Of a stretch of 64,000 nt of DNA, positions 27,196 to 42,740 are shown piece after piece. Every line of letters starts with the position of its first letter. Positions within the stretch are counted from its first letter, which is position 1. The position numbers and the translations under genes were made by a program. The stretch comes from Saprospiraceae bacterium (lineage in GTDB: Bacteria; Bacteroidota; Bacteroidia; Chitinophagales; Saprospiraceae), in the NCBI GenBank assembly GCA_022844565.1, contig JALHLK010000024.1, positions 1 to 64,000 of the forward strand, written 5' to 3'. The notes under the pieces were generated by a model. The model searched no databases. It worked only from the letters and a program-made list of their open reading frames with translations, and was not told the origin of the DNA.

Positions 27196-28500
27196 TTAAT
27201 TCCAAAAATTATATAATCCCCAATATCCAAATCCCAAAACTAGAATGAAGTACACCATATTATTTAATACTAACGTTGATTTAATCCAGAACTTCGCTTT
27301 ATCTGACTTCAGTCTGTTTACTGTATAGACTAAAATAGGTAAGAATGATAGCAAAAGTAAAAATGGCGTATAAGAGGAAGTACTTATTAAGCTTGAACTG
27401 TGATGTTTATACGGAACATCAAAATAGAAAATACTCTGATTTGTAATTAACACGTATATATAAGCAATAAGAACCAAGTTTAAAAATGAAATTACTACAA
27501 CTGATTTTGGTGAAACAAAAGTGGATTTATTCTTCCATAATAGTGAAATAATCAAAGCAAATGAAAATACAGCTAATAACCCTGCAAGTATTACAAGAAA
27601 GATTCTTAATTCGACAGTATTTGACGGAGTTTTGAAGCTGACAAGTCTTTCAAATTCAGAATTCTTCGGAAATATTTCAGTAAAATTTAGAATATGGTCT
27701 CCCTTTGATAGCTCATCTGTTAAGCTATACTGCACTAAGGTATCAAAGTTGTGGTAAAAGTAGAGGCTTACTATTTTTTCTTTGGTGTCAAAAATAGAAG
27801 TAATTAATGTACCATCTCCATTTCTGGTTCTACAAACTGACATTGTATCTGAGAGCGTAGTACAAAAGTCGAGCGTAGCAATTGCTTTATTGGTTCTTAA
27901 AAAATCCTCTCCATTCCGGTATCTTTCAAGTTTTCTAGCTTGTTTGTTATCTGTTATTGAAGGACAAAAATTAGCCAAAACATAATTAGGGTTATTACCT
28001 TCTATAAGCTTGTAAGGCTCTACAATTAAATAATCCCCGAAACTGTCAATATATATAAATACATCATTCAAAAAGAAGCTATGGTCATATTGTTCAATGT
28101 GTTTTTTCACCTCTTTTATAGTTGCACATTTATGAAGTATCTCTGATAAGTAGTCAGCTTCACTTGTTATTTTTAGTCTGTTTGAAAATGGATTGTTTTG
28201 AACTGGGTAATATGAAGTCAAACGTGAAAATGAAAGACCCTCGGTGTTCATACCTGATTGTGGAGCTGTTCTGGTTGGAGAAACTTCTCTTGACCCTGTA
28301 AAAACAGTTCCATACTCATTTTTATGTTTGGCAGTCTCAAACCATATTTTGGGTGTAGTCAACCAAGCATCGTGATTACAACCCACCATTGTATTTCCAT
28401 CAACGGTTATTTTGTAAATACTGCAAGCTATTATCTTGTTTTGAAATATTGTCAAAGCAAGAGTCACAAGTAGAATTAAATGGGATTTTTTAATTATCAT
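27196..28500 (-). CDS. Ntn-hydrolase (linear amide hydrolase-like) domain fused to a membrane domain
   Basis: 434 residues. Signal peptide to about residue 25, with Cys26 directly after it: Cys-S-I-Y at the mature N terminus fits the nucleophile of the choloylglycine hydrolase/C45 penicillin acylase-like Ntn family. Further family features are GCNHDAW and the PQSGMNTEGLSFSR loop. Residues 305-434 contain about four membrane segments, an unusual extension. It is probably an inner-membrane amidase facing the periplasm; the substrate is unknown. Flanked by a 12-base inverted repeat, alone in its orientation between his and MBL genes. Confidence 0.65.
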   Translation of the reverse strand: MIIKKSHLILLVTLALTIFQNKIIACSIYKITVDGNTMVGCNHDAWLTTPKIWFETAKHKNEYGTVFTGSREVSPTRTAPQSGMNTEGLSFSRLTSYYPVQNNPFSNRLKITSEADYLSEILHKCATIKEVKKHIEQYDHSFFLNDVFIYIDSFGDYLIVEPYKLIEGNNPNYVLANFCPSITDNKQARKLERYRNGEDFLRTNKAIATLDFCTTLSDTMSVCRTRNGDGTLITSIFDTKEKIVSLYFYHNFDTLVQYSLTDELSKGDHILNFTEIFPKNSEFERLVSFKTPSNTVELRIFLVILAGLLAVFSFALIISLLWKNKSTFVSPKSVVVISFLNLVLIAYIYVLITNQSIFYFDVPYKHHSSSLISTSSYTPFLLLLSFLPILVYTVNRLKSDKAKFWIKSTLVLNNMVYFILVLGFGYWGLYNFWN

Positions 28501-28531
28501 TTTTTGTAAACGGCATTACGGTTGTTTTAAT

Positions 28532-28543
28532 TGCATACAACAA
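28532..28543. repeat. 12-base arm matching 27172-27183 in inverted orientation
   Basis: TGCATACAACAA, 32 bases upstream of the Ntn-hydrolase start, is the exact reverse complement of the arm at 27172-27183. Together they bracket the single gene. Confidence 0.7.
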
Positions 28544-28681
28544 TTTTTTACGCTGCTCATGTACATCACAACTTTTTTGTCATATTTCTTCTCGCAACAA
28601 AGTCTAATGCCTAATTCGGGTTAAATTTTGGGTAACTTCAAATTTTCCCCTCAATATGCATGATATAAAAATATTTTCACT

Positions 28682-28689
28682 TAGCTTTG
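28682..28689 (+). promoter_or_regulatory. -7 promoter element of the his operon
   Basis: TAGCTTTG matches the Bacteroidota -7 consensus TAnnTTTG exactly and lies 18 bases before the leader peptide start. No clear TTTG is found about 20 bases upstream, so the -33 element is weak. Confidence 0.5.
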
Positions 28690-28707
28690 CCCTTAATATT
28701 TAAAAGT

Positions 28708-28764
28708 ATGAATTTTACATTCCATCATCACACACATCATCATCACTTGCATAAAGTGGGGTAG
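28708..28764 (+). CDS. hisL: Histidine operon leader peptide
   Basis: An 18-residue open frame, MNFTFHHHTHHHHLHKVG, with eight His codons; seven of the eight codons from 6 to 13 encode His. It starts 18 bases after a -7 element and ends 50 bases before an intrinsic terminator that precedes hisG. Low charged His-tRNA would stall the ribosome within codons 6-13; otherwise it reads to the stop at 28762. The stop codon lies next to AAAGTGGG (28753-28760), which can pair with the 5' arm of the terminator. This is the classical logic of hisL attenuation, seen directly in sequence. Confidence 0.88.
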   Translation: MNFTFHHHTHHHHLHKVG

Positions 28765-28840
28765 ATTTGTATTGGATGGATTTTAAATATTAAAGTAAAA
28801 TCAAAACAAAACGGCCCGCTTTTAGTGGGCTTTTTTGTTT
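28753..28840 (+). terminator. his attenuator: intrinsic terminator with competing antiterminator
   Basis: Terminator: GCCCGC (28814-28819) pairs with GTGGGC (28825-28830) around TTTTA, followed by TTTTTTGTTTTT. Antiterminator: AAAGTGGG (28753-28760) can pair with CCCGCTTT (28815-28822), eight pairs with one G-U, which would destroy the terminator stem. A ribosome that reaches the leader stop covers 28753-28760 and leaves the terminator free to form; a ribosome stalled on upstream His codons leaves the antiterminator free. Confidence 0.85.
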
Positions 28841-28906
28841 TTAGTGATTAAGATAAAAAAAGTTAGCACAAAGCCAGCGGATAAAAATTTAAAAACTTAG
28901 GAAAAA

Positions 28907-29758
28907 ATGATAAAAATAGCAATTCAAAAATCAGGTAGATTATACGAAGACAGTCTTCGCTTATTGAAGGATTGTGGACTTTCTATTGAAGATGGTCTAG
29001 ACACTTTAAAGGCAGAAGTTCGCAATTTTAATGCGGAGATATTGTTTCTCCGCAATTCTGATATCCCTCAGTATTTAGAAGATGGCGTAGCAGATGTGGC
29101 CATCTTGGGTGAAAATGTTTTGATAGAAAAAGGAGTAAATATTGAGATTGTAGAGCGCCTCGGTTTTTCTAAATGTCGCCTATCAGTAGCCATGCCTAAG
29201 GGTAATGAATATGATGGTCCTCAATCTTTAGAAGGATTAAAAATAGCTACTTCTTATCCAAAAACGTTGCAAGGATTTCTCGATGAAAATGGGGTAACAG
29301 CTAGCATACATCTCATCAGTGGGTCAGTAGAAATCGCACCAAATATTGGTTTAGCACATGCTATCTGTGATTTGGTAAGTAGCGGGAGCACTCTTTTCAA
29401 AAATGGACTTGAGGAAAAACAAATTATTTTAAAATCTGAAGCAGTATTAGCCGTAAATAAAAAATCATTGGTGCAATTTGGTGACATCATCAACGAATTA
29501 TCCTTTAGAATCAATGCAGTACTTAAGGCAAGGAAAAACAAATATATCTTATTTAATGTTCCTAACGAAAAGATAGCGGAAGCCAGTAAAATTCTTCCAG
29601 TACTCAAAAGCCCTACCGTTCTTCCTTTGATAGAAGAAGGCTGGAGCAGCATGCATTCTGTAATCTCGGATGATGATTTTTGGGATGTGATCGCTAGATT
29701 AAAGGCTATTGGGGCTGAGGGTATATTGGTAGTCCCTATAGAAAAAATGGTAGTTTAA
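28907..29758 (+). CDS. hisG: ATP phosphoribosyltransferase (long form)
   Basis: 283 residues, the long HisG with a C-terminal ACT-like regulatory domain, which binds histidine for feedback inhibition. Catalyses the first step, ATP plus PRPP to phosphoribosyl-ATP. Visible: IAIQKSGRLYEDS at the N terminus, the LISGSVEIAPNIGLAHAICDLVSSGSTL PRPP loop, and the regulatory strand PTVLPLIEEGWSSMHSVISDDDFWDVI. First structural gene after the attenuator; 1 base from hisD. Confidence 0.97.
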   Translation: MIKIAIQKSGRLYEDSLRLLKDCGLSIEDGLDTLKAEVRNFNAEILFLRNSDIPQYLEDGVADVAILGENVLIEKGVNIEIVERLGFSKCRLSVAMPKGNEYDGPQSLEGLKIATSYPKTLQGFLDENGVTASIHLISGSVEIAPNIGLAHAICDLVSSGSTLFKNGLEEKQIILKSEAVLAVNKKSLVQFGDIINELSFRINAVLKARKNKYILFNVPNEKIAEASKILPVLKSPTVLPLIEEGWSSMHSVISDDDFWDVIARLKAIGAEGILVVPIEKMVV

Positions 29759-29759
29759 C

Positions 29760-31043
29760 ATGATAAGAATACACAAAGATTGCTCATTTGACGATTTGAT
29801 TAATATTACTCATCGGCCTATGATTGATGCTGCTGATCTTCAGAAAGTGATCGCTGATATTTACCAAGGTATTATTACTTCAGGAGATGCACATCTCATA
29901 GATTTGACTAAAAAATTTGATAAAACAGATATTTTATCCGTAAAAGTTGATGAAACGTCTATCGATCAAGCGTATGAAACCTTAGACAGTGAATTGAAAG
30001 TTGCAATAATTAAGGCACAACAAAATATTATAAAATTTCATACTGCTCAATTACCAAATGTGGTGAAGGTAGAGACCATGTCGGGTGTGTACTGTTATCA
30101 AAAAGCCAAAGCCATTGAGCGTATAGGTATTTACATACCCGGAGGTACTGCTCCCTTATTTTCTACCATATTGATGCTTGCGATCCCAGCAAAAATAGCT
30201 GGAGTAAAAGAAATTGTTTTGTGTAGCCCTCCAACGTTTAAGGGTGGCATTCATCCTACTATTCTAGCAACTGCTAAGATTTGTGGCATTGATCAAGTCT
30301 TTCAAGTAGGTGGTGCACAAGCGATAGCAGCCATGGCTGTCGGTACAGATGCTATCCCGAAAGTTAGTAAGATTTTTGGTCCGGGCAACCAATACGTCAC
30401 TGCTGCCAAAGAAAATGCACAGAAATATGGAGTAGCTATAGATATGCCTGCAGGCCCATCAGAAGTATTGGTTTATGCTGACGACACGTGTGTACCTGCA
30501 TATGTAGCTGCTGATTTACTTTCTCAAGCGGAGCACGGTATCGATAGCCAAGTAGTAGCAGTGGTGACAAATCAGGTCATTGCTGATGCAATAAATGAGG
30601 CCGTAATTGACCAATTAGAAGTACTCCCACGTAAAGATATTGCTATCAAAGCACTCCAAAATAGCCATATCATCATCGAACCCGACCGCTCAAAAGCATT
30701 TAAATACATCAATGCGTATGGTCCCGAACATTTTATCATTGCCTCAGATCATGCAGAAGATTTATCAGAACTTACCATCAACGCTGGTTCAGTTTTTCTG
30801 GGTAACCTATGTCCTGAAGCAGTTGGCGATTATGCATCAGGTACCAATCATACCTTGCCGACGTATGGATGGGCTAAGTCCTACAGTGGTGTGAATATCG
30901 ATACCTTCATGAGAAAAATAACCTTTCAAAAACTTACAAAAGAAGGTATGAGTAATTTGGGACCAATCGTTGTGAAAATGGCAGAAGCAGAGCAATTGCA
31001 AGGTCATGCCAATGCCGTAAAAATTAGATTAAAAGACTTGTAA
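29760..31043 (+). CDS. hisD: Histidinol dehydrogenase
   Basis: 427 residues, full length. Oxidises L-histidinol to L-histidine in two NAD-dependent steps, zinc enzyme. Motifs: [68 protein letters not shown] and YGPEHF. Follows hisG by 1 base and precedes hisC by 1 base. Confidence 0.98.
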
Positions 31044-31044
31044 T

Positions 31045-32109
31045 ATGAACCAAATCGATATACAAAATCTAGTAAGACAAAATGTAAAGAAACTGAAGCC
31101 GTACAGCTCTGCACGTGATGAATTCAAAGGCTCAGCGGATGTTTTTATAGATGCCAATGAGAATCCCTACGACAATGGTTACAATAGATATCCTGACCCA
31201 AGGCAGATAAAATTAAAGGAAAAAATCAGTCACTGGAGAAATGTACCATTAGAAAATATCTTTGTGGGTAATGGTTCGGATGAGGTGATTGACTTAGTGA
31301 TTAGAGCATTTTGCATCCCAGGGGTAGATAATGTTGTTGGTTTTAATCCCAGTTATGGTATGTATGATGTATCTGCTGGCATAAACGATGTAGAACTCAT
31401 AAAAGTAGACTTAAAACCTGATTTTACACTTGATTTTGAAGCTTTGAAAAGGGCCATTACTTCTCATACCAAAGTTGTTTTCTTATGTAGTCCAAATAAC
31501 CCATCTGGAAATGAGCTGCCGTACTCGGAAGTCATTAATTTTATAGAAGGAGTGAATGCTATTGTTGTTATCGACGAAGCCTATATAGATTTTGCAGACC
31601 AAAAGTCAATGATCACAAAGATTAATGACCATCCAAATTTGATTGTTATGCAGACCTTATCCAAGGCAATGGGCTCTGCTGCACTGCGCATAGGTATGGG
31701 ATTTGCACAGCAACCACTCATTAATATTTTGAATAAAATCAAACCACCGTACAACATTAGCTCAGCTGCCCAAGCTGAAGCTATAAAAATATTTGAAAAC
31801 ATCGATCAATTAACAACTCAAACCCAAAAGATCAAATCCGAAAGAGAAAGATTGAAAATGGAATTGACTCGATACAAACAAGTATCTGAAATTTTTCCCT
31901 CTGCAGCCAACTTTATATTGATACGAGTAGACGATGCAAATAAATTATACAATTTTCTCACATCCGAAGGTATCATCGTGCGCAATCGTCATGGTCAAAA
32001 GCATTGTGACAATTGTCTTCGCATCACTGTAGGCACTCCCGATGAAAACGATTTATTAATTTACAAATTAGATGAGTATTACTATGCAGAAAATATTGTT
32101 TCTCGATAG
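31045..32109 (+). CDS. hisC: Histidinol-phosphate aminotransferase
   Basis: 354 residues, class II-type fold I aminotransferase. Converts imidazole-acetol phosphate to histidinol phosphate. PLP site: TLSKAMGSAALRIGM with the Schiff-base lysine; NPSYGMYD, CSPNNPSGN and IDEAYIDF are also present. Its 3' end overlaps the start of hisB. Confidence 0.97.
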   Translation: MNQIDIQNLVRQNVKKLKPYSSARDEFKGSADVFIDANENPYDNGYNRYPDPRQIKLKEKISHWRNVPLENIFVGNGSDEVIDLVIRAFCIPGVDNVVGFNPSYGMYDVSAGINDVELIKVDLKPDFTLDFEALKRAITSHTKVVFLCSPNNPSGNELPYSEVINFIEGVNAIVVIDEAYIDFADQKSMITKINDHPNLIVMQTLSKAMGSAALRIGMGFAQQPLINILNKIKPPYNISSAAQAEAIKIFENIDQLTTQTQKIKSERERLKMELTRYKQVSEIFPSAANFILIRVDDANKLYNFLTSEGIIVRNRHGQKHCDNCLRITVGTPDENDLLIYKLDEYYYAENIVSR

Positions 32110-33193
32110 AGATGGTGTGATGGTTTATGAACCTGAAGACCAACAAGTAGATTCATTAGCTAAGGTTAAGTTTGTTAAAGGTCTTTTCACTAATCTAGGT
32201 GAAATTGCTTCCAAATTAGATTATATCCTTGTAATGGTGACCAATCAAGATGGCTTGGGTTCGGACATTTTTCCAGAGAGCACGTTTTGGCCTGTTCAAA
32301 ATTTGATTGTTGATACCCTTGCGGGTGAAGGAATAAAGTTTGAAGAGATCTGTATCGATAGGCATTTCGAAAAAGACAATTCACCCAACAGAAAGCCGGG
32401 CACGGGTATGCTTACTAAATATTTTGACAAGTCTAGGTACGACTTAACCAATTCTATCGTGATTGGAGATAGAGTGTCTGATATGGTCTTGGCCAAAAAC
32501 CTGGGTTGTAAGGGTATAAGAATAAACGGATGGCAAGATATGCCAGAAGAACTTAAAGAACACATCATACTTGATACCAATAATTGGTCAGATATCAAGA
32601 CGCATTTATTCAAAATGGATCGTAAAGCCAATGCGATCAGAAATACAAGCGAAACTAAAATTTCAGGTGCCATTAATTTAGATGGTAGTGGCATAGCAGA
32701 AATCAAAACTGGACTTGGTTTTTTTGACCACATGCTCGATCAGATAGCAAGACATGCATCAATAGATTTATTCATCGAGACCAAAGGTGATCTACACATT
32801 GACGAACATCATACGGTAGAAGATACTGCTATACTTTTAGGTACATTATTTCACCAAGCGCTAGGCAAAAAGGCGGGAATAAAACGATATGGATTTTCGC
32901 TACCAATGGATGAGGCTGAAGCCCAGGTTTTATTAGATTTTGGAGGAAGACCTTGGTTGGTGTGGGACGTACCTTTCACACGTGAGTATGTGGGCGATGT
33001 CCCGACGGAGATGTTTCACCACTTCTTCAAAAGCTGGAGTGATGCTGCAAAAGCCAATATCAACATCAAGGCAAGAGCAAGCAATGACCATCATTTGATC
33101 GAGTCTGTATTCAAAGCATTTGCCAAAGCAATTAAGATGGCTAAGACGAATGAAGGGCACAATGATATTCCGAGTACAAAAGGAACTTTATAA
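32084..33193 (+). CDS. hisB: Bifunctional histidinol-phosphatase / imidazoleglycerol-phosphate dehydratase
   Basis: 369 residues from the ATG at 32084; an ATG four codons earlier is also in frame but FLDRDG starts closer to the second. N-terminal HAD phosphatase (FLDRDG, VTNQDG, NRKPGTGML, GDRVSDM). C-terminal IGP dehydratase from about residue 185, with the DHMLDQIARHASIDL and HHTVEDTAILLG metal motifs. Overlaps hisC by 26 bases, or 38 with the earlier start. Confidence 0.95.
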   Translation: MQKILFLDRDGVMVYEPEDQQVDSLAKVKFVKGLFTNLGEIASKLDYILVMVTNQDGLGSDIFPESTFWPVQNLIVDTLAGEGIKFEEICIDRHFEKDNSPNRKPGTGMLTKYFDKSRYDLTNSIVIGDRVSDMVLAKNLGCKGIRINGWQDMPEELKEHIILDTNNWSDIKTHLFKMDRKANAIRNTSETKISGAINLDGSGIAEIKTGLGFFDHMLDQIARHASIDLFIETKGDLHIDEHHTVEDTAILLGTLFHQALGKKAGIKRYGFSLPMDEAEAQVLLDFGGRPWLVWDVPFTREYVGDVPTEMFHHFFKSWSDAAKANINIKARASNDHHLIESVFKAFAKAIKMAKTNEGHNDIPSTKGTL

Positions 33194-33210
33194 TCTACAT
33201 TTTTGTTTAG

Positions 33211-33228
33211 CTAAGTAAACTAAGTAAG
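33211..33228 (+). promoter_or_regulatory. 9-base direct repeat before the phd-like antitoxin
   Basis: CTAAGTAAA CTAAGTAAG abuts the antitoxin ATG. GTTTA/TAAAC symmetry overlaps it at 33205-33220. It may be the operator for Phd-type autorepression or just the initiation region. Confidence 0.35.
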
Positions 33229-33489
33229 ATGGAAATAGTAAATATGCACGAGGCAAAGACCAACCTTTCTAAATTAGCACAAAAAGTGATCAAAGGTGAA
33301 AGGGTAATTATTAGCAAAAATAATGAACCGATTATGGAATTAGTGCCATATACAAAAGAACCTAAGAAACGAGGGTTCGGGACATTGAAAGGACAGATTT
33401 CTTTTACTGATGATTTCTGGGAAGCTGATGAAGAAATTATTAAACTATTCGAAAATAGTAAATTATTTCCAAATGAGGATAATAGTTGA
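33229..33489 (+). CDS. Phd/YefM-family antitoxin
   Basis: 86 residues. N-terminal Phd/YefM fold MEIVNMHEAKTNLSKLAQKVIKGERVIISKNNEPIMELVPY (key motif AKTNLSKL, then ERVIISKNN), followed by an acidic toxin-binding tail (TDDFWEADEEIIKLFENS). Binds operator DNA and the toxin. It starts 35 bases after hisB and overlaps the toxin gene by 17 bases. Its location inside the his operon is discussed under findings. Confidence 0.88.
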   Translation: MEIVNMHEAKTNLSKLAQKVIKGERVIISKNNEPIMELVPYTKEPKKRGFGTLKGQISFTDDFWEADEEIIKLFENSKLFPNEDNS

Positions 33490-33847
33490 TACACATATCT
33501 TAATTTGGTTTACCGATGATAATCCTAGATTAAAAAGCAAACATAGAGATTTAATTATCAATGGTGAAAATGTGATTTTTTATAGTTCAATTTCATTAGT
33601 TGAGTTAAGCATAAAGATACAAAAACAGAAGTTAATTATGGGTGATAAATATATTGAAGAATTTGATAATCTTCTTTTTACTTGTTTACCATTTAATAAA
33701 AATCATGCCAAGGAATTTTCTAACCTTCCTGATTATCATTCTGATCCTTTTGATAAAATGATAATCTCTCAAGCAATAAGTGAGAAAATCCCTATAATAT
33801 CATATAACAGTAATTTTAAACATTACAAAAACCTAACATTACTATGA
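33473..33847 (+). CDS. VapC-like PIN-domain toxin
   Basis: 124 residues from the ATG at 33473; the longer frame back to 33410 reads across the antitoxin. PIN-domain signature: MRIIVDTHILIWF with Asp6, an SLVELSIK glutamate, and YHSDPFDKMIISQAI with the acidic pair, completed by the conserved IPIISYN strand. PIN toxins are magnesium-dependent ribonucleases, often acting on tRNA or rRNA. The stop codon TGA overlaps the ATG of hisH (ATGA). Confidence 0.88.
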   Translation: MRIIVDTHILIWFTDDNPRLKSKHRDLIINGENVIFYSSISLVELSIKIQKQKLIMGDKYIEEFDNLLFTCLPFNKNHAKEFSNLPDYHSDPFDKMIISQAISEKIPIISYNSNFKHYKNLTLL

Positions 33848-34428
33848 ATCTGGCCATAATAGACTACAATGCCGGCAATACCAAATCTGTCATCAACGCG
33901 CTTCGCAGATTAGGAATAGAGCCTGTCCTTACCGCTGATGCTGACTTAATTTTAAAAGCAGATAAAGTTATTTTACCAGGGGTAGGGCATGCTGGTAGTG
34001 CTATGGCGGAGTTGCATAAGCGAAATTTAGTAGACATATGCAAAGCCGTCACAGTGCCTTTTTTAGGCGTATGTGTAGGTATGCAATTGATGATGGATTG
34101 GTCAGAAGAAGGGGATACACAATGTCTAGGTTTAGCAGAAGGTGATATCATCAGATTTCAAAGTAATGAATACAAAATCCCACAAATAGGTTGGAATACG
34201 GTCAAGCATAATGACTCCCCACTTTTCAAAGATATACCTCAAAATAGTTACTTTTATTTTGTGCATAGTTACTATTTAGCATTGAATAAAAATGGCATTG
34301 CTACCACCAATTATATACAACCCTTCCATGTCGCCATAGCAAAAGACAATCTTTTTGGGGTACAGTTTCACCCAGAAAAAAGTGCACAATGGGGCGAAAA
34401 ATTGTTAGAAAACTTTTTAAATATCTAA
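33844..34428 (+). CDS. hisH: Imidazole glycerol phosphate synthase, glutaminase subunit
   Basis: 194 residues, class I glutamine amidotransferase. Supplies ammonia to HisF. Nucleophile Cys77 (GVCVGMQLM), catalytic His/Glu in QFHPEKS near the end. Starts within the toxin stop (ATGA), so translation may be coupled to VapC. Confidence 0.97.
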   Translation: MNLAIIDYNAGNTKSVINALRRLGIEPVLTADADLILKADKVILPGVGHAGSAMAELHKRNLVDICKAVTVPFLGVCVGMQLMMDWSEEGDTQCLGLAEGDIIRFQSNEYKIPQIGWNTVKHNDSPLFKDIPQNSYFYFVHSYYLALNKNGIATTNYIQPFHVAIAKDNLFGVQFHPEKSAQWGEKLLENFLNI

Positions 34429-34440
34429 AATAATTTAAGA

Positions 34441-34505
34441 TGCATTTTTATACTTTCCTTCATTCACGCATTCTCCCATTCCCGCATTCATGCATTCAAG
34501 AATTA
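34441..34505 (+). repeat. CATTC-type short repeats between hisH and hisA
   Basis: Several overlapping units of CATTC and CGCATTC (TTCATTCACGCATTCTC then CCCGCATTCATGCATTC) fill the 83-base gap. The reverse complement GAATGC units recur in the array at 38.9-39.7 kb. Confidence 0.6.
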
Positions 34506-34511
34506 TAAAAT

Positions 34512-35222
34512 ATGATACAAATCCTACCTGCAATAGATATGATCAATGGTCGATGTGTACGCCTGACCAAAGGAGATTATAGCACTGAAAAAGTATACCA
34601 CGAAGATCCGGTCGAGATGGCTCAATCTTTTGAAAGAGCTGGTGCAAAATTCATTCATCTTGTAGATCTTGATGCCGCAAAAAAGCAAGGAAACAATTAT
34701 GATGTTATCTCAAAAATTGCATCGTCTACCAATCTAACAGTACAGATGGGCGGAGGTATCAGAGATACGGACACCCTAAAGCAAGTGCTCGATTTTGGGG
34801 TGAGTAGGGCCATCATTGGCAGTTTAGCTGTAAAGGACCCTCAATTGGTTTTTGACTGGATAAAAGAATTTGGCCCAGAAAAAATAGTAATAGGCACCGA
34901 CGTCATGAATGGTTACATAGCCACAGATGGCTGGCATGTCACATCTGACAAAGATATCAATAGTTTTGTGTCTACTTACATGAAAAATGGTGCCACTACC
35001 TTCTTATGTACCGATATCAGCCGCGATGGGATGTTGCAAGGCATAGCTGGAGACTTGTATCAAGATCTACAGAATACACATAAAGGAATACAATTAATCG
35101 CCTCAGGTGGTGTAAAAGACATGACAGATGTGGTCAAAGCAAAAGACCTTGACATGTTTGGCATCGTCATAGGAAAAGCCATTTATGAAGGCAATATCTC
35201 ATTAGAACAACTTTTCAATTAA
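34512..35222 (+). CDS. hisA: Phosphoribosylformimino-5-aminoimidazole carboxamide ribotide isomerase
   Basis: 236 residues, TIM barrel. Isomerises ProFAR to PRFAR. Catalytic Asp9 (PAIDMI) and the second Asp in GTDVMNG are present, with phosphate-binding loops MGGGIR and ASGGV. Paralogous to the next gene, hisF. Confidence 0.97.
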
Positions 35223-35227
35223 GAATC

Positions 35228-35983
35228 ATGCTTACAAAACGAATCATACCTTGCCTCGATATAAAAGATGGCCGTACGGTCAAAGGCACCAACTTTGTCA
35301 ATTTACGCGATGCTGGTGACCCTGTAGAACTCGCCAAAGTCTATGCCAAGGAAGGTGCTGATGAGTTGGTTTTTCTCGATATCAGCGCTACGAATGAAGG
35401 TCGCACAACTTTGTTAGACTTAGTGAAGCGGGTAGGTGAAGCGATTAATATTCCATTTTCAGTAGGCGGTGGGATCAATAGCCTAGAAGTAGCATACAAT
35501 ATTCTTCAAAATGGTGCAGACAAAATCTCTGTAAATTCTTCGGCCATTGCCCGACCCGAACTTATTAGCGAATTGTCAGAAGCATTTGGTGCGCAATGTG
35601 TCATCGTAGCCATTGATGCCAAAAAAGAAGAAGGAATGTGGTATGTACACACGCATGGAGGACGTCGCAATACAGGTATAGACCTCTTTGAGTGGGCCAA
35701 AAAAGCACAAGATCTGGGGGCTGGAGAAATCCTCTTTACCTCCATGGACCATGATGGCACCAAAGATGGTTACGCCCTTGAAGCCTTAAGTCATATGAAT
35801 AGTCTGCTTTCTATACCCATCATAGCTTCAGGTGGTGCTGGCAAAATGGAGCATTTTGCAGAAGCTTTACGTGATGGAGTAGCTGAAGCAGCGCTAGCAG
35901 CGAGTGTTTTTCATTTTCAAGAGATGACAATACCAGGGTTGAAAGAGTATTTGAAGGGAGAGGGGATTGAGGTTAGGATTTAA
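35228..35983 (+). CDS. hisF: Imidazole glycerol phosphate synthase, cyclase subunit
   Basis: 251 residues, TIM barrel. Cyclises PRFAR with ammonia to IGP and AICAR. Catalytic Asp11 ([12 protein letters not shown]) and Asp in VAIDAKK, phosphate loops VGGGI and ASGGAG. Last his gene in the window: no hisI/hisIE follows within the 176 bases before glgA. Confidence 0.97.
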
Positions 35984-36159
35984 AATAATTAACATTAGAT
36001 TTTAGATAATCCATCTAAAAAAACATCCGTACATAACTTTTAAAATCTACTTCACTTAATCTGTTAACTTCTTTTTTTAAAAAAAAACCTCATAACAGTT
36101 GGGCAATATCAAATAATGGCATATTTTGGCTGTATATTTTTTAAAGCCCGATTTCAATA

Positions 36160-37599
36160 ATGAAAATTCACTTTCTTTCAGCAGAATGTTATCCCGCAGC
36201 AAAAACAGGGGGCCTCGCAGATGTAGTGGGTGCGTTGCCTAAATATCTGAATGCGCTCGGATGTGAGGTCTCGGTATTTATGCCAAAATATCACATGCCT
36301 TGGTTTTTTGAACAACAATATGTTTCTGAGTATATTGGAAATTTCAATCTTGGAAATGAATATGTAAGCTTTCATGTAGAGCGAATTGATAAAGAAAAAC
36401 TAGGCTTTTACCTTTATGTAATCGATATCCCTGGCAAATTCGACAGAAATGGTGTTTATGCAGATGCGAGTACTGGCATATTTTTTGGTGACGAAGTAGA
36501 ACGAAATATTGCCTTCCAACGTGCCTATCTTGACTTTGTCAATACTTGGACAGATCTTCCTGATGTCATTCACAATCACGATCATCACACAGGTTTGGTT
36601 CCTTTTTTAGCAGGAAATTGTCCTCAATATCAAAGATTAAAAAATATTCCTACAGTTTTTACTATACACAATCAAGCGTACCAAGGTTCATTTGATTGGA
36701 ATAGACAAAACTTATTACCTAGATATGACTCTTGGAAATCTGGAATGATGGATTGGCAAGGAAGAATTAATCCTTTGGCATCTTCTGTAAAGTGCTCTTG
36801 GAAGTTGACTACCGTTTCTCCTTCTTACATGGAGGAATTAAAAGTTAAAAGTTTTGGTCTCGAATGGCTATTTAACTCTGAAGCTTTTAAATCTGTGGGT
36901 ATACTCAATGGTATCGATACAGTCGTTTGGAATCCAAAAACAGACTCATATTTGGATCATCATTTAAAAAAAGATATTCATGCGTTTAAACTCCATCATA
37001 AAAAGTCATTACTAGAAGGTACAGGACTTGATTTTACCCAACCATTGATGACCTTCATTGGTCGTTTTGCTGCGGAGAAAGGAGCTGATTTATTACCCCA
37101 AATTATGGAGCAGTCTATCTTAAATGGACAACATATCAACTTTATCATACTTGGCACAGGAGATAAAGGTGTAGAGTATCAAATTAAAGCCTTAGCTGCT
37201 CGATATCCAAACAGAGTTATAGCGCATATTATGTATAATGAAGCTTTATCGCGCAAGATTTATTCAGGAAGCGATTTCTTAATCATGCCTTCTAGAGTGG
37301 AGCCTTGTGGTCTTAATCAAATGTACGCATTAAGGTATGGTACCATTCCCGTTGTTCATAATATTGGTGGACTAAAAGATAGTGTTTTTGAATTCGATGG
37401 CAAAACAGGCTGTGGCTTTAAATTCAAAAACTTAGAGTTGGGCGAAATCCTTTATGCTACACACAAAGCAAAAGAAGCTTACTATAGTCCTGCAACATTT
37501 AAAACCTTAGTGAAGAATGCTTTGAATATGGATTATAGCTGGGAAAAAAGTGCTAAATCATATTACGAAGTTTACAAACAAGTCATCAAGGATGAATAA
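36160..37599 (+). CDS. glgA: Glycogen synthase (ADP-glucose type)
   Basis: 479 residues, GT5 family. Transfers glucose from ADP-glucose to the non-reducing end of glycogen. N-terminal KTGGLADVVG (Lys15) and C-terminal MPSRVEPCGLNQMYALRYGTIPVV are diagnostic. It is followed by glgC 30 bases downstream: synthase and precursor supply in one unit. Confidence 0.95.
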   Translation: MKIHFLSAECYPAAKTGGLADVVGALPKYLNALGCEVSVFMPKYHMPWFFEQQYVSEYIGNFNLGNEYVSFHVERIDKEKLGFYLYVIDIPGKFDRNGVYADASTGIFFGDEVERNIAFQRAYLDFVNTWTDLPDVIHNHDHHTGLVPFLAGNCPQYQRLKNIPTVFTIHNQAYQGSFDWNRQNLLPRYDSWKSGMMDWQGRINPLASSVKCSWKLTTVSPSYMEELKVKSFGLEWLFNSEAFKSVGILNGIDTVVWNPKTDSYLDHHLKKDIHAFKLHHKKSLLEGTGLDFTQPLMTFIGRFAAEKGADLLPQIMEQSILNGQHINFIILGTGDKGVEYQIKALAARYPNRVIAHIMYNEALSRKIYSGSDFLIMPSRVEPCGLNQMYALRYGTIPVVHNIGGLKDSVFEFDGKTGCGFKFKNLELGEILYATHKAKEAYYSPATFKTLVKNALNMDYSWEKSAKSYYEVYKQVIKDE

Positions 37600-39808: not shown

Positions 39809-41359
39809 TTATTTTAGCTTATTTGTCCTTATGTTCTCTTGAATCACCATTTCAATTGGTTTATCTTGAATTTTACAGTCCAGCCATGCGATAATATCAA
39901 GGTATAAAAAAGCCCGCCTTTCAAAGACATCTTCACGGTATTTTACCAGTTTGTTTCTTAAAGAAATGAACTCGTTTTTGAGTTGCTCATTGACCATATT
40001 TGGAATTTTACGTAAGAAAGAGAAAACTTCTTTCTGCACCATTTGTAATTCTTCCATTTTGATTAGAAATTTGAAGACTGATTTGATCTGATAGCTGATA
40101 AGAAGTTTATTGCCTAATTCATAATGGGCGATTAGATTAAGGATTCTAGCAAAGCATTGTATATCGTTGCGCACATCAATGACTGGTTGATTGATAATGG
40201 TATTGAGGTAGTCTATACAGCGGCTATGATCTCCTGCCCCGAAGTGTACACAAGCAAGTTTGTAGTAAAAGTTTAGTTTTCTATTGGCATCCCAATCATG
40301 TTTTTCGCGTTCTAATGCTACTTCAATGGGTTCTATCATTTTTACGCCATTGGTATATTCACCCGTCAAAAAAATGTAATTTAATAGATGTGTACCGTTG
40401 GCAATTTCAAATATCGACTTATCATTAAAATTAAAATTTGTCTCATTAAGTTTGCCAAAGTGCGATAACTTATAAAAATTGGGTTCAAATTTATCAATAC
40501 GATTTGCCATATAGGAAGCACTTAACACATTGTGCAGACCTTTGATATAAAGGACATAATTTTGCCCTTTCCATTCAGGATTACTATCAAACAAATCTAC
40601 CCACCTTTGTGCAAATCTATAATTATTGGCAAAATCTTGCATCATGTAGTAGTACCACGTATATGACTGATAGAGGTATACCTTATCATAGAAACCAAGT
40701 TGTTTATCTTTGATATCAGGTAAGTGAGATTTAAAAAATTCTTCTATCAATACACTATCCCTTTTACTCCTTACATAACCATATTTTAGGTACATGGCAT
40801 ATGTTTTTACCGATAGATTAGCAAGTGCGTTGTTTAAACTTGTTTTTTCCAGATAGGTATTACTTTCCTTTTCCATAATATCAGCCTTTATAGCAATACT
40901 ACCCGTGACATATTGATTCTCAATTACTCTTTCATATTCTAAAGAGATAAAAGCCAAGGAATAATCTTCGTGTGAAAGCGCATTTTGCTTAGCTTTATTG
41001 AGCATATCAAGGGAAGCCTTGTACATGCCTTTAGAATTGAGCACAGTAGCAAAATCTATAATCTCTCGTGTTTTGATATCTTCATTTTTTTTTCTGTACA
41101 GCAACCTTAAATTTGTTAATAATTGGCTATAGAGATTGGCCTTTATATTTGGCAATTGAATCTTTTGAAGTTGCGGATTTTTTTTAAGAATGTCGGCTTC
41201 ATCAAGATAACCGTGTTTGTCAATATATTCAAAAACGATCATAAACAATTTATCCTCTTGATCTCCTTGTCTATTTGTATAAATGTTAAAGCTTCTTTTT
41301 TCTGCTTTTGTAAGACGCCTGATAAGCTCTGTTAAATGTTCTGTTTGCTGCTTGGGCAT
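39809..41359 (-). CDS. Hypothetical protein, helical-repeat-like, Bacteroidota type
   Basis: 516 residues, not recognised by family. No signal peptide or membrane segment. The N terminus (HLTELIRRLTKAEKRSFNIYTNR) is a type I have seen in Saprospiraceae-like proteins. The rest is regularly spaced helices with aromatic residues (LDMLNKAKQNALSHEDYSLAFI, YYKLACVHFGAGDHSRCIDYL), suggesting a TPR-like solenoid. No catalytic motif is seen. It is convergent with glgC, with the repeat array in between. Confidence 0.65.
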   Translation of the reverse strand: MPKQQTEHLTELIRRLTKAEKRSFNIYTNRQGDQEDKLFMIVFEYIDKHGYLDEADILKKNPQLQKIQLPNIKANLYSQLLTNLRLLYRKKNEDIKTREIIDFATVLNSKGMYKASLDMLNKAKQNALSHEDYSLAFISLEYERVIENQYVTGSIAIKADIMEKESNTYLEKTSLNNALANLSVKTYAMYLKYGYVRSKRDSVLIEEFFKSHLPDIKDKQLGFYDKVYLYQSYTWYYYMMQDFANNYRFAQRWVDLFDSNPEWKGQNYVLYIKGLHNVLSASYMANRIDKFEPNFYKLSHFGKLNETNFNFNDKSIFEIANGTHLLNYIFLTGEYTNGVKMIEPIEVALEREKHDWDANRKLNFYYKLACVHFGAGDHSRCIDYLNTIINQPVIDVRNDIQCFARILNLIAHYELGNKLLISYQIKSVFKFLIKMEELQMVQKEVFSFLRKIPNMVNEQLKNEFISLRNKLVKYREDVFERRAFLYLDIIAWLDCKIQDKPIEMVIQENIRTNKLK

Positions 41360-41495
41360 TGTATATTAATATTATTTAAACTATTGAATTACAAATATAT
41401 AAAAAATTTAAAATAGATTTAAAAATCGTATAAGATTTTATAGAAAGGATAAAAAAGAATTAAACAACTAGACTAATAATTGGTTGAAATCTCTA

Positions 41496-41503
41496 TAAAT
41501 TTG
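41496..41503 (+). promoter_or_regulatory. -7 promoter element upstream of leuA
   Basis: TAAATTTG fits TAnnTTTG. It lies 79 bases before the leuA ATG. No good -33 match was found, so this is tentative. Confidence 0.35.
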
Positions 41504-41582
41504 TTGTAGCAAAAGTTTGTTAATAAACTAAGTTCCAAAAATTACCATGAGGTATCATTTCAAAAATCGAATTTTTATATAA

Positions 41583-42740
41583 ATGAGCAGTAATAAAGTT
41601 TTTATTTTCGACACTACCCTTAGGGATGGCGAGCAAGTCCCAGGATGCAAATTAAAGCAATCTCAAAAGTTAGAACTGGCCGAGCTTCTTGATCAATTAG
41701 GAGTAGACATCATCGAGGCTGGTTTTCCAATATCAAGTCCTGGGGATTTTCAATCTGTCTCAGAAGTAGCTAAAATAGTGAAAAATGCTACCGTATGTGG
41801 CCTTTCGAGATCTGTAGAAAAAGACATCAAGGCTGCAGCCGACGCTTTAGTTCATGCAAAAAAGCCAAGAATACATACAGGCATCGGTACTTCTGAAAAC
41901 CACATGAAATTCAAATTTAATTGTGGGCCAGAAGAAATAATAAGAAGAGCCGTGGCCGCTGTGAAATATGCCAAATCATTTGTCGAAGACGTTGAGTTTT
42001 TTGCGGAAGATGCTGGAAGAAGCGATAATGCTTTCTTAGCTAAAGTTTGTGAAGAAGTCATCAAAGCAGGTGCTACCGTATTGAATATTCCTGATACTAC
42101 AGGTTATTGTCTGCCTGATGAATATGGAGCAAAAATCAAATACCTGGCTGAAAATGTCAAAGGTATACACAAAGCTGTACTGTCTACGCATTGTCACAAT
42201 GATCTAGGTCTTGCTACGGCCAACTCCATTGCAGGTGTAATCAGTGGTGCTAGACAAGTAGAATGTACCATCAATGGCGTAGGTGAAAGAGCAGGTAATA
42301 CCTCTTTGGAAGAAGTGGTGATGATCCTTAAGCAGAAACTAAGTGACCAATATTATACTGATATCAATACAAAATTACTTAAACCAACGAGCGAGCGCGT
42401 TTCTTTTGAAATGGGTATGCCTGTCCAAGCCAATAAGGCGATCGTTGGGGATAATGCTTTTGCACATTCATCAGGTATACATCAGGATGGTGTGATCAAA
42501 AATAGAGAAACTTATGAAATCATTGACCCATTAGATGTAGGTGTCCCTAAGAGTTCGATCATCCTTACAGCAAGGTCAGGTAGAGCCGCTTTGGCCTTTC
42601 GCGCAAAAGAAATTGGGTACAATCTTACTAAAGACGAATTAGATATTGCCTATCAAAGTTTCTTGATATTGGCTGATGCTCAGAAAGAAGTCCGAGACAA
42701 TGATTTAGAAAAATTACTAAAACAAAAAGTTTTTGCATAA
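41583..42740 (+). CDS. leuA: 2-isopropylmalate synthase (short form)
   Basis: 385 residues. Condenses 2-ketoisovalerate with acetyl-CoA in leucine synthesis. Motifs: [11 protein letters not shown] (Arg14, Asp15), [11 protein letters not shown] metal histidines, NGVGERAGN and the LeuA-diagnostic [16 protein letters not shown]. The C-terminal allosteric LeuA dimer domain of long forms (over 500 residues) is absent, so leucine inhibition by that domain is unlikely. Starts the leuA-ilvDBNC operon; leuB, leuC and leuD are not in the window. Confidence 0.93.

Follow-up and report, generated by a model that had tools for sequence, protein, structure and literature searches.

A probable histidine leader-peptide attenuator upstream of hisG in a Saprospiraceae genome, and its counterparts in Bacteroidota

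The stretch of DNA analysed here, 64,000 nucleotides of a Saprospiraceae genome (contig JALHLK010000024.1; hereafter the window), contains a histidine operon preceded by a short frame rich in His codons. The question raised by this locus is whether the region between the two is a leader-peptide attenuator and, if so, how many alternative RNA pairings it would use. A reading made from the sequence alone (the sequence-only reading) had proposed a compact attenuator with two-state logic. We consider it very probable, from the sequence and modelled folds, that the region is a ribosome-mediated transcription attenuator of hisGDCB-HAF, sensing charged tRNA-His via three alternative RNA pairings. The evidence is computational throughout and consists of the parts, their conservation, the pairing in relatives and the folds computed for three states, from which we infer ribosome stalling on the leader and a response to histidine. 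The features concerned are as follows.

28682–28689, forward strand: candidate -7 promoter box TAGCTTTG, TAnnTTTG type (pattern match)
28708–28764, forward strand: leader frame MNFTFHHHTHHHHLHKVG, with ATG at 28708 and stop TAG at 28762–28764 (ORF translation, scan for His frames)
28721–28726, forward strand: 5' base of the protector hairpin, TCCATC, overlapping the first His codons and pairing with 28775–28780 (folds)
28743–28748, forward strand: 5' tip of the protector hairpin, TCACTT, pairing with 28754–28759 inside the antiterminator arm (folds)
28753–28760, forward strand: antiterminator arm AAAGTGGG, the last codons of the leader, pairing with CCCGCTTT at 28815–28822 (folds; relatives)
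28775–28780, forward strand: 3' base of the protector hairpin, GATGGA, after the leader stop (folds)
28813–28836, forward strand: intrinsic terminator, stem-loop 28813–28831 and U-tract 28831–28836 (folding, terminator scan, covariation in relatives)
28876–28880, forward strand: weak vestige of arm Z, which follows the terminator in relatives, with AGCGG facing CCGCT in the terminator (pairing not significant here)
28907–29758, forward strand: hisG, first gene of the operon presumed to be controlled (PF01634, 3e-47)
29760–35983, forward strand: rest of the his operon, hisD, hisC, hisB, a Phd/YefM and PIN pair, hisH, hisA and hisF (Pfam domains)

A short translatable frame with tandem cognate codons ahead of the cognate operon, as expected of a leader-peptide his attenuator, was found in the window. 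The leader peptide MNFTFHHHTHHHHLHKVG has 18 codons, eight of which encode His (28723–28731, 28735–28746 and 28750–28752), and translation and simulated windows confirmed the eight-His leader at 28708–28764 described by the sequence-only reading. No other ATG-started frame of 8–45 aa in the window reaches five His in ten codons, and 60 simulated 64-kb windows (first-order Markov) yielded two comparable His frames altogether, the best of them with six His. The names of the operon genes were assigned from Pfam domains and gene order, and the closest named relative is a Saprospiraceae MAG (81% HisG identity). The operon includes a Phd/YefM-type antitoxin gene (PF02604) and a gene for a PIN-domain protein (PF01850) in the hisB–hisH interval (33229–33847). 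There is no hisIE behind hisF (35983–36160), the next frame being glycogen synthase-like by eye; a PRA-CH-family gene is located on another contig of the same genome (C45, L277), and no His leader was seen ahead of this PRA-CH-family/hisIE gene when its upstream region was read by eye.

Similarity to the HisG of the window yielded 260 hisG loci, which, after the removal of two with less than 250 nt upstream and of 12 duplicates, gave 246 distinct upstream regions, the window included. Besides the loci from the search, 40 of the 252 genomes of the phylum with a hisG match were hand-picked for diversity, as were 40 of the 175 such genomes of the family. The sequence-only reading had named the leaders upstream of hisG in related genomes as a check, and this comparison came out in its favour: a frame with at least four His in ten codons was present in 208 of the 246 upstream regions and in four on the reverse strand. 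Leu ranked second among the forward codon-rich frames (102/246), but reached 105 on the reverse strand. A leader (at least three His) with an intrinsic terminator was found in 213/246 regions, the median distance from leader stop to terminator being 32 nt, and in 24 of the 40 hand-picked phylum-wide loci (16 misses), although these are counts of related loci, with Chryseobacterium over-represented, and not of independent events. Three loci scored as leaderless (L069, L071 and L131) proved, on reading by eye, to contain a frame that resembles a leader and has two His codons. The TAnnTTTG pattern, which we take to be the Bacteroidetes -7 consensus, was present in the 70 nt preceding the leader ATG at 134/210 loci, versus 32/210, 5/210 and 7/207 when the search was shifted 100, 150 and 200 nt further 5' as a control. 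In the window the box TAGCTTTG lies 18 nt 5' of the ATG, and transcription presumably starts from this box at 28682. The distribution of the leaders indicates that a putative histidine leader-peptide switch is common in Bacteroidota. Leader-peptide amino-acid sensing would then be a common his-operon arrangement in a major phylum, although no family of this kind was recovered from Rfam release 15 in our searches.

Some loci differ in their architecture. In L195–L198, L120, L135, L136, L200 and L202 there is a His leader and no intrinsic terminator was called; in L120, L136, L195, L197, L198, L200 and L202 a short hairpin extends across the leader stop, lies next to it or draws on the His codons (for example, TTCCTC..GAGGAA and CACCAC..GTGGTG), a sequence arrangement that hints at another output. 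A tRNA-Phe (GAA) gene was located near the his leader or hisG in 15 of 19 selected loci scanned (L099, L100, L103, L104, L106–L110, L112, L113, L119, L126, L231 and L236), in several just before the leader, so that the leader RNA may be co-transcribed with the tRNA in such loci.

Folds were tested for 210 of the 213 loci with leader and terminator (209 in some tests), L057, L203 and L205 being excluded because leader and terminator are more than 60 nt apart. Swap controls, with median z values of −0.7 to −1.2, were weaker than the shuffle controls, which gave −1.1 to −2.6; relatedness among the loci would lead one to expect this. Covariation was assessed in the Flavobacteriales-type loci (L013–L088 without L019, L023, L032, L036 and L037, plus L162–L188), which come mostly from Flavobacteriales and also from Bacteroidales and Cytophagales, and 92 of which have leader and terminator. 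Thinning at 87% identity left 45 sequences, and two with long inserts (L051 and L062) were dropped, resulting in the 43 rows of alignment A1. Double changes were counted on the branches of the HisG tree, with partners slid 1–3 columns as controls.

The intrinsic terminator between the leader and the first gene, the second part of a leader-peptide his attenuator, reads GGCCCGC-TTTTA-GTGGGC-TTTTTT. A terminator scan of 28400–29000 found one site versus a mean of 0.1 in shuffles, which bears out, as 28813–28836, the terminator previously placed at 28814–28836. Covariation of the terminator stem, another check named by the sequence-only reading, is clear in A1, with 98.7% of cells paired and the pair kept in all ten double changes, whereas the slid partners keep none.

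The antiterminator pairing AAAGTGGG:CCCGCTTT, which includes one G-U, is exclusive with the terminator, as in a leader-peptide his attenuator. Complementarity in the window alone was not above chance against dinucleotide shuffles (p = 0.12), and the support for this arm therefore comes from the relatives. In A1, 89.3% of its cells are paired, versus at most 44.2% when slid, and the pair is kept in five of seven double changes and in none with slid partners. The covariation score (0.123) exceeds all 500 shuffles (0.092), but sliding by +1 yields 0.128, albeit with only 36.8% of cells paired. Thus, the arm at 28753–28760 pairing with the 5' arm of the terminator, as previously claimed, is upheld by pairing kept in relatives, and of the covariation expected for it the pairing and double changes stood, whereas the score was matched by one slid version. 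The claim that the end of the leader is itself the antiterminator arm also held beyond the window: of 209 loci, 120 have their best-pairing arm within the leader frame, 86 have it overlapping the stop and three have it beyond the stop.

The mechanism that we propose would work as follows. On a leader free of ribosomes, the run of His codons would pair with the bases surrounding the leader stop and those beyond it, and this protector would hide the antiterminator arm, allowing the terminator to form. With ample His-tRNA, a ribosome at the stop codon would cover the arm and the terminator would form again. With scarce His-tRNA, a ribosome would stall at the first His codon, the protector would be broken, and the free AAAGTGGG would capture the emerging 5' arm of the terminator, such that RNA polymerase would continue into hisG. 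One feature counts against this model: the last His codon abuts the antiterminator arm, and a ribosome stalled there would hide the arm.

The folds computed for the window are in line with these three states. Without the terminator (28700–28812), the RNA folds as a long protector hairpin, 28721–28780 (−20.6 versus −12.4 in shuffles, z = −3.3), which takes up all but one of the eight bases in the antiterminator arm (28754–28760). With the terminator and no ribosome, protector and terminator form together (−39.9 kcal/mol, z −5.3; −30.7 without the U-tract). Masking to 28739, for a ribosome at the first His codon, with the U-tract not yet out, yields the antiterminator (−22.7, z −3.2), and masking to 28776, for a ribosome at the stop, yields the terminator. 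The probability of the terminator core in the window is 0.97, 0.54 and 0.97 with no ribosome, a stalled ribosome and a ribosome at the stop, respectively; an earlier version of the model, keeping U-tract pairs in the stem, gave 0.97, 0.95 and 0.97, almost no drop, and with the complete terminator including U-tract pairing (28745–28842) the minimum free energy structure remains the terminator even with the His codons masked.

Across the loci, six or more pairs join the His stretch to the sequence on its 3' side in 205/209, and in the naked leaders of 184/209 half or more of the antiterminator arm is paired. Stalling lowers the terminator probability by at least 0.3 in 41/210 loci, with an equal rise in none, and brings it below 0.5 in 36/210, versus 0 with shuffled leader tails (means of eight shuffles); clean three-state switching at equilibrium was obtained for 34/210. 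At equilibrium the terminator still wins in most loci in the stalled state, which implies that, on these models, switching of the attenuator must be kinetic and not at equilibrium. The 5' side of the protector is fixed by the His codons, and the fold energies, in the window and its relatives, are what argues for a protector (1:2) hairpin favouring termination without translation. As modelled, the switch looks like the classical three-helix kind, with protector, antiterminator and terminator.

Alignment A1 also revealed an unexpected segment after the terminator, Z (consensus TTTACTCAGAC), which is complementary to the 5' arm and loop of the terminator (GTCTGAGTAAA) and, over GTTTACTC, also to the hisG start (ATGAGTAAAC). 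Z was spotted by eye in the loci in which it was later tested, so the test is not independent, and in it the Z:terminator pairing had 93.5% of cells paired, five pairs with changes on both sides and a covariation score of 0.240 (0.159 in shuffles, at most 0.071 slid), the pair being kept in seven of nine double changes on branches (0–1 slid). The corresponding values for Z:hisG were 90.9%, 0.208 (0.125 in shuffles, at most 0.085 slid) and four of five double changes (0–1 slid). One-sided changes keep the Z:terminator pair in 39/73 cases and the Z:hisG pair in only 20/56; they therefore break the hisG pairing more often than they keep it. In the 32 cells that distinguish loop from hisG, Z can pair with the loop alone in ten, with hisG alone in 12, with both in eight, one of the two pairs then being G-U, and with neither in two. 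Without L187 and L188, which contribute eight cells and have no clear Z, the figures are nine, seven, eight and zero (24 cells). Z tracks the loop in L165 and L167, and hisG in L021, L049 and L058. In the 39 rows that remain when L183, L185, L187 and L188 are left out for want of a clear Z, it lies 13–19 nt before the hisG ATG in 35 and 30–34 nt before it in four, and its distance from the terminator varies from 14 to 48 nt.

By shuffles, the Z:terminator pairing is significant in 85 of the 92 Flavobacteriales-type loci, in four of the five members of the window clade (the window and L009–L012; p 0.01–0.02 in L009–L012) and in 24 of 113 other loci. The window itself is the sole exception in its clade (p = 0.45), and Z-type pairing at its hisG start was not significant either (p = 1.0; start region unpaired 0.89); Z was rejected as a supported part of the window on both counts. 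The computed gain in accessibility of the hisG start from Z is modest, the mean rising from 0.33 to 0.43, with a gain above 0.1 in 39/89 loci and a loss in three, and for L011 the accessibility model gave no Z:terminator pairing at all.

RNA polymerase reaches Z only after the terminator, so Z cannot influence termination itself; its complementarities suggest a check on the translation of hisG, a second translational gate. It is possible, with our judgement leaning slightly against it, that the Bacteroidota his leader is a double gate in which Z tests whether the terminator has formed and then blocks or frees the hisG start. A formed terminator would hold its own 5' arm, so that Z would be available to the hisG start codon, pairing with it and blocking the translation of leaky read-through; if the terminator were prevented, Z would capture its 5' arm and loop and hisG would be open. 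The ribosome on the leader peptide would, if this were true, control both transcription and translation of the same gene via one shared strand, and the covariation-supported fourth arm of the relatives makes such a dual gate directly testable.

Other explanations of the locus have to be weighed against the three-pairing attenuator. In the compact two-state attenuator of the sequence-only reading, only antiterminator and terminator would compete, the ribosome at the end of the leader would decide, and read-through would be the default without translation. The two pairings are indeed present, the arm is formed by the leader's last codons, and the protector shows little covariation in A1, where it is not convincing: 82.7% of cells paired versus 81.7% in shuffles, a score of 0.088, below that of the slid version (0.100), and one of two double changes keeping the pair. 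However, the naked leader of the window folds as the protector; strong leader structure without the terminator (z < −1.65) is general, being found in 185/210 loci versus 32/210 for a stretch of equal length 5' of the leader, and a specific His-region duplex is significant in 133/210. With the antiterminator arm hidden, the element should terminate without translation rather than read through, and without a ribosome the terminator probability is indeed below 0.5 in only 2/210 loci. A third pairing is thus present, contrary to the claim that two mutually exclusive ones suffice; compact two-state logic was rejected, and we regard this account as improbable.

The leader might instead act mainly on hisG translation or RNA stability, with the hairpin as only a weak terminator. 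The near-constant distance of the post-terminator arm from the hisG start in many relatives, and its capacity to pair with that start, would fit such an action, as would the lineages with a His leader and no terminator called, such as L195–L198, L200 and L202. However, the terminator hairpin of the window is stable and has a U-tract, and the hisG start of the window has no significant pairing, which makes this account very improbable. A histidine T-box or riboswitch in place of a leader peptide would share the terminator/antiterminator arrangement upstream of an amino-acid operon. The His codons, however, form a conserved frame, and the Rfam covariance-model search of the window returned no family at gathering score, nor any T-box among the 25 sub-threshold matches of 28640–28960; T-box membership was rejected, and we give almost no credence to this alternative. 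Those 25 matches were to unrelated small RNAs and leader-peptide families, the latter including Phe_leader (26.4 of 55 bits), Trp_leader (21.5 of 41) and His_leader (20.5 of 49), and membership of RF00514 His_leader was rejected on this last score. A search of 20 relatives yielded three tRNA matches only.

The same genome contains other candidate leaders. The leader MINQNWWWHIELTYNGNR precedes a trpE-like gene of the chorismate-binding family (L269, contig C5) and MIINNSNFFYSPFFFYHK precedes a prephenate dehydratase family gene (L273, contig C42), each with a terminator-like hairpin behind it by eye; from their sequences they look like attenuators for Trp and Phe. In contrast to his, trp and phe in this genome, the operon starting at 41583, which holds an ILVD_EDD-family gene and which we take to be leuA/ilv, had no leader or terminator seen by eye in its upstream region (41340–41582).

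In the hisL attenuator of Gammaproteobacteria, protector, antiterminator and terminator helices alternate and the position of the ribosome decides between them. The window element resembles it in having a His-rich leader before hisG and, in the computed folds, three alternating helices, but is not recognised by the RF00514 model, and its antiterminator arm falls inside the leader frame or at its end. Attenuators of Bacteroidetes/Chlorobi, from a few early genomes, are reportedly treated by Vitreschak et al. (2004) and Lopatovskaya et al. (2010) and possibly belong to the same class as the window element. A statement from 2010, in the available part of PMC2965389, that to its authors' knowledge no leader-peptide system existed outside Proteobacteria and Actinobacteria sits badly with these attenuators; the same part describes Firmicutes hisS/hisZ leaders. 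In the available text of PMC9413887, his attenuators are assigned to Proteobacteria and Firmicutes, and the word Bacteroidetes is absent; the Firmicutes examples, with His leader, terminator and antiterminator and no RF00514 match reported, have the same parts as the window element in another phylum.

The closest precedent concerns the same gene and phylum. In its available part, the Flavobacterium psychrophilum transcriptome study (PMC9723704) reports clues to leader-peptide attenuation of amino-acid operons, together with a structured element 5' of hisG that is shared across Flavobacteriaceae and, like the window element, has no Rfam match. The suggestion that such a leader was worth documenting in Bacteroidota was thus partly anticipated by this element and these clues. 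Neither helices nor a third or fourth arm of the hisG element are described in that text. In the portion available of a paper on the his genes of this superphylum (PMC8305728), attenuation is mentioned once, for S. enterica and E. coli, and no word starting with 'leader' occurs; that of the Bacteroides thetaiotaomicron transcriptome map (PMC7366714) mentions frames reminiscent of leader peptides, and neither 'hisG' nor 'histidine'. Among the titles and abstract openings of the open-access literature, no paper on the helices of the Bacteroidota his leader or on the Z arm was recognised. The trp operon of Bacillus subtilis combines TRAP attenuation with a hairpin blocking the trpE start, and resembles the relatives with a Z arm in that one leader would carry a transcriptional and a translational gate; its sensor is the TRAP protein, whereas here the sensor would be the ribosome on the leader peptide. 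The window element very probably belongs to a known class, the leader-peptide his attenuators, and the candidate for novelty is the Z arm of its relatives.
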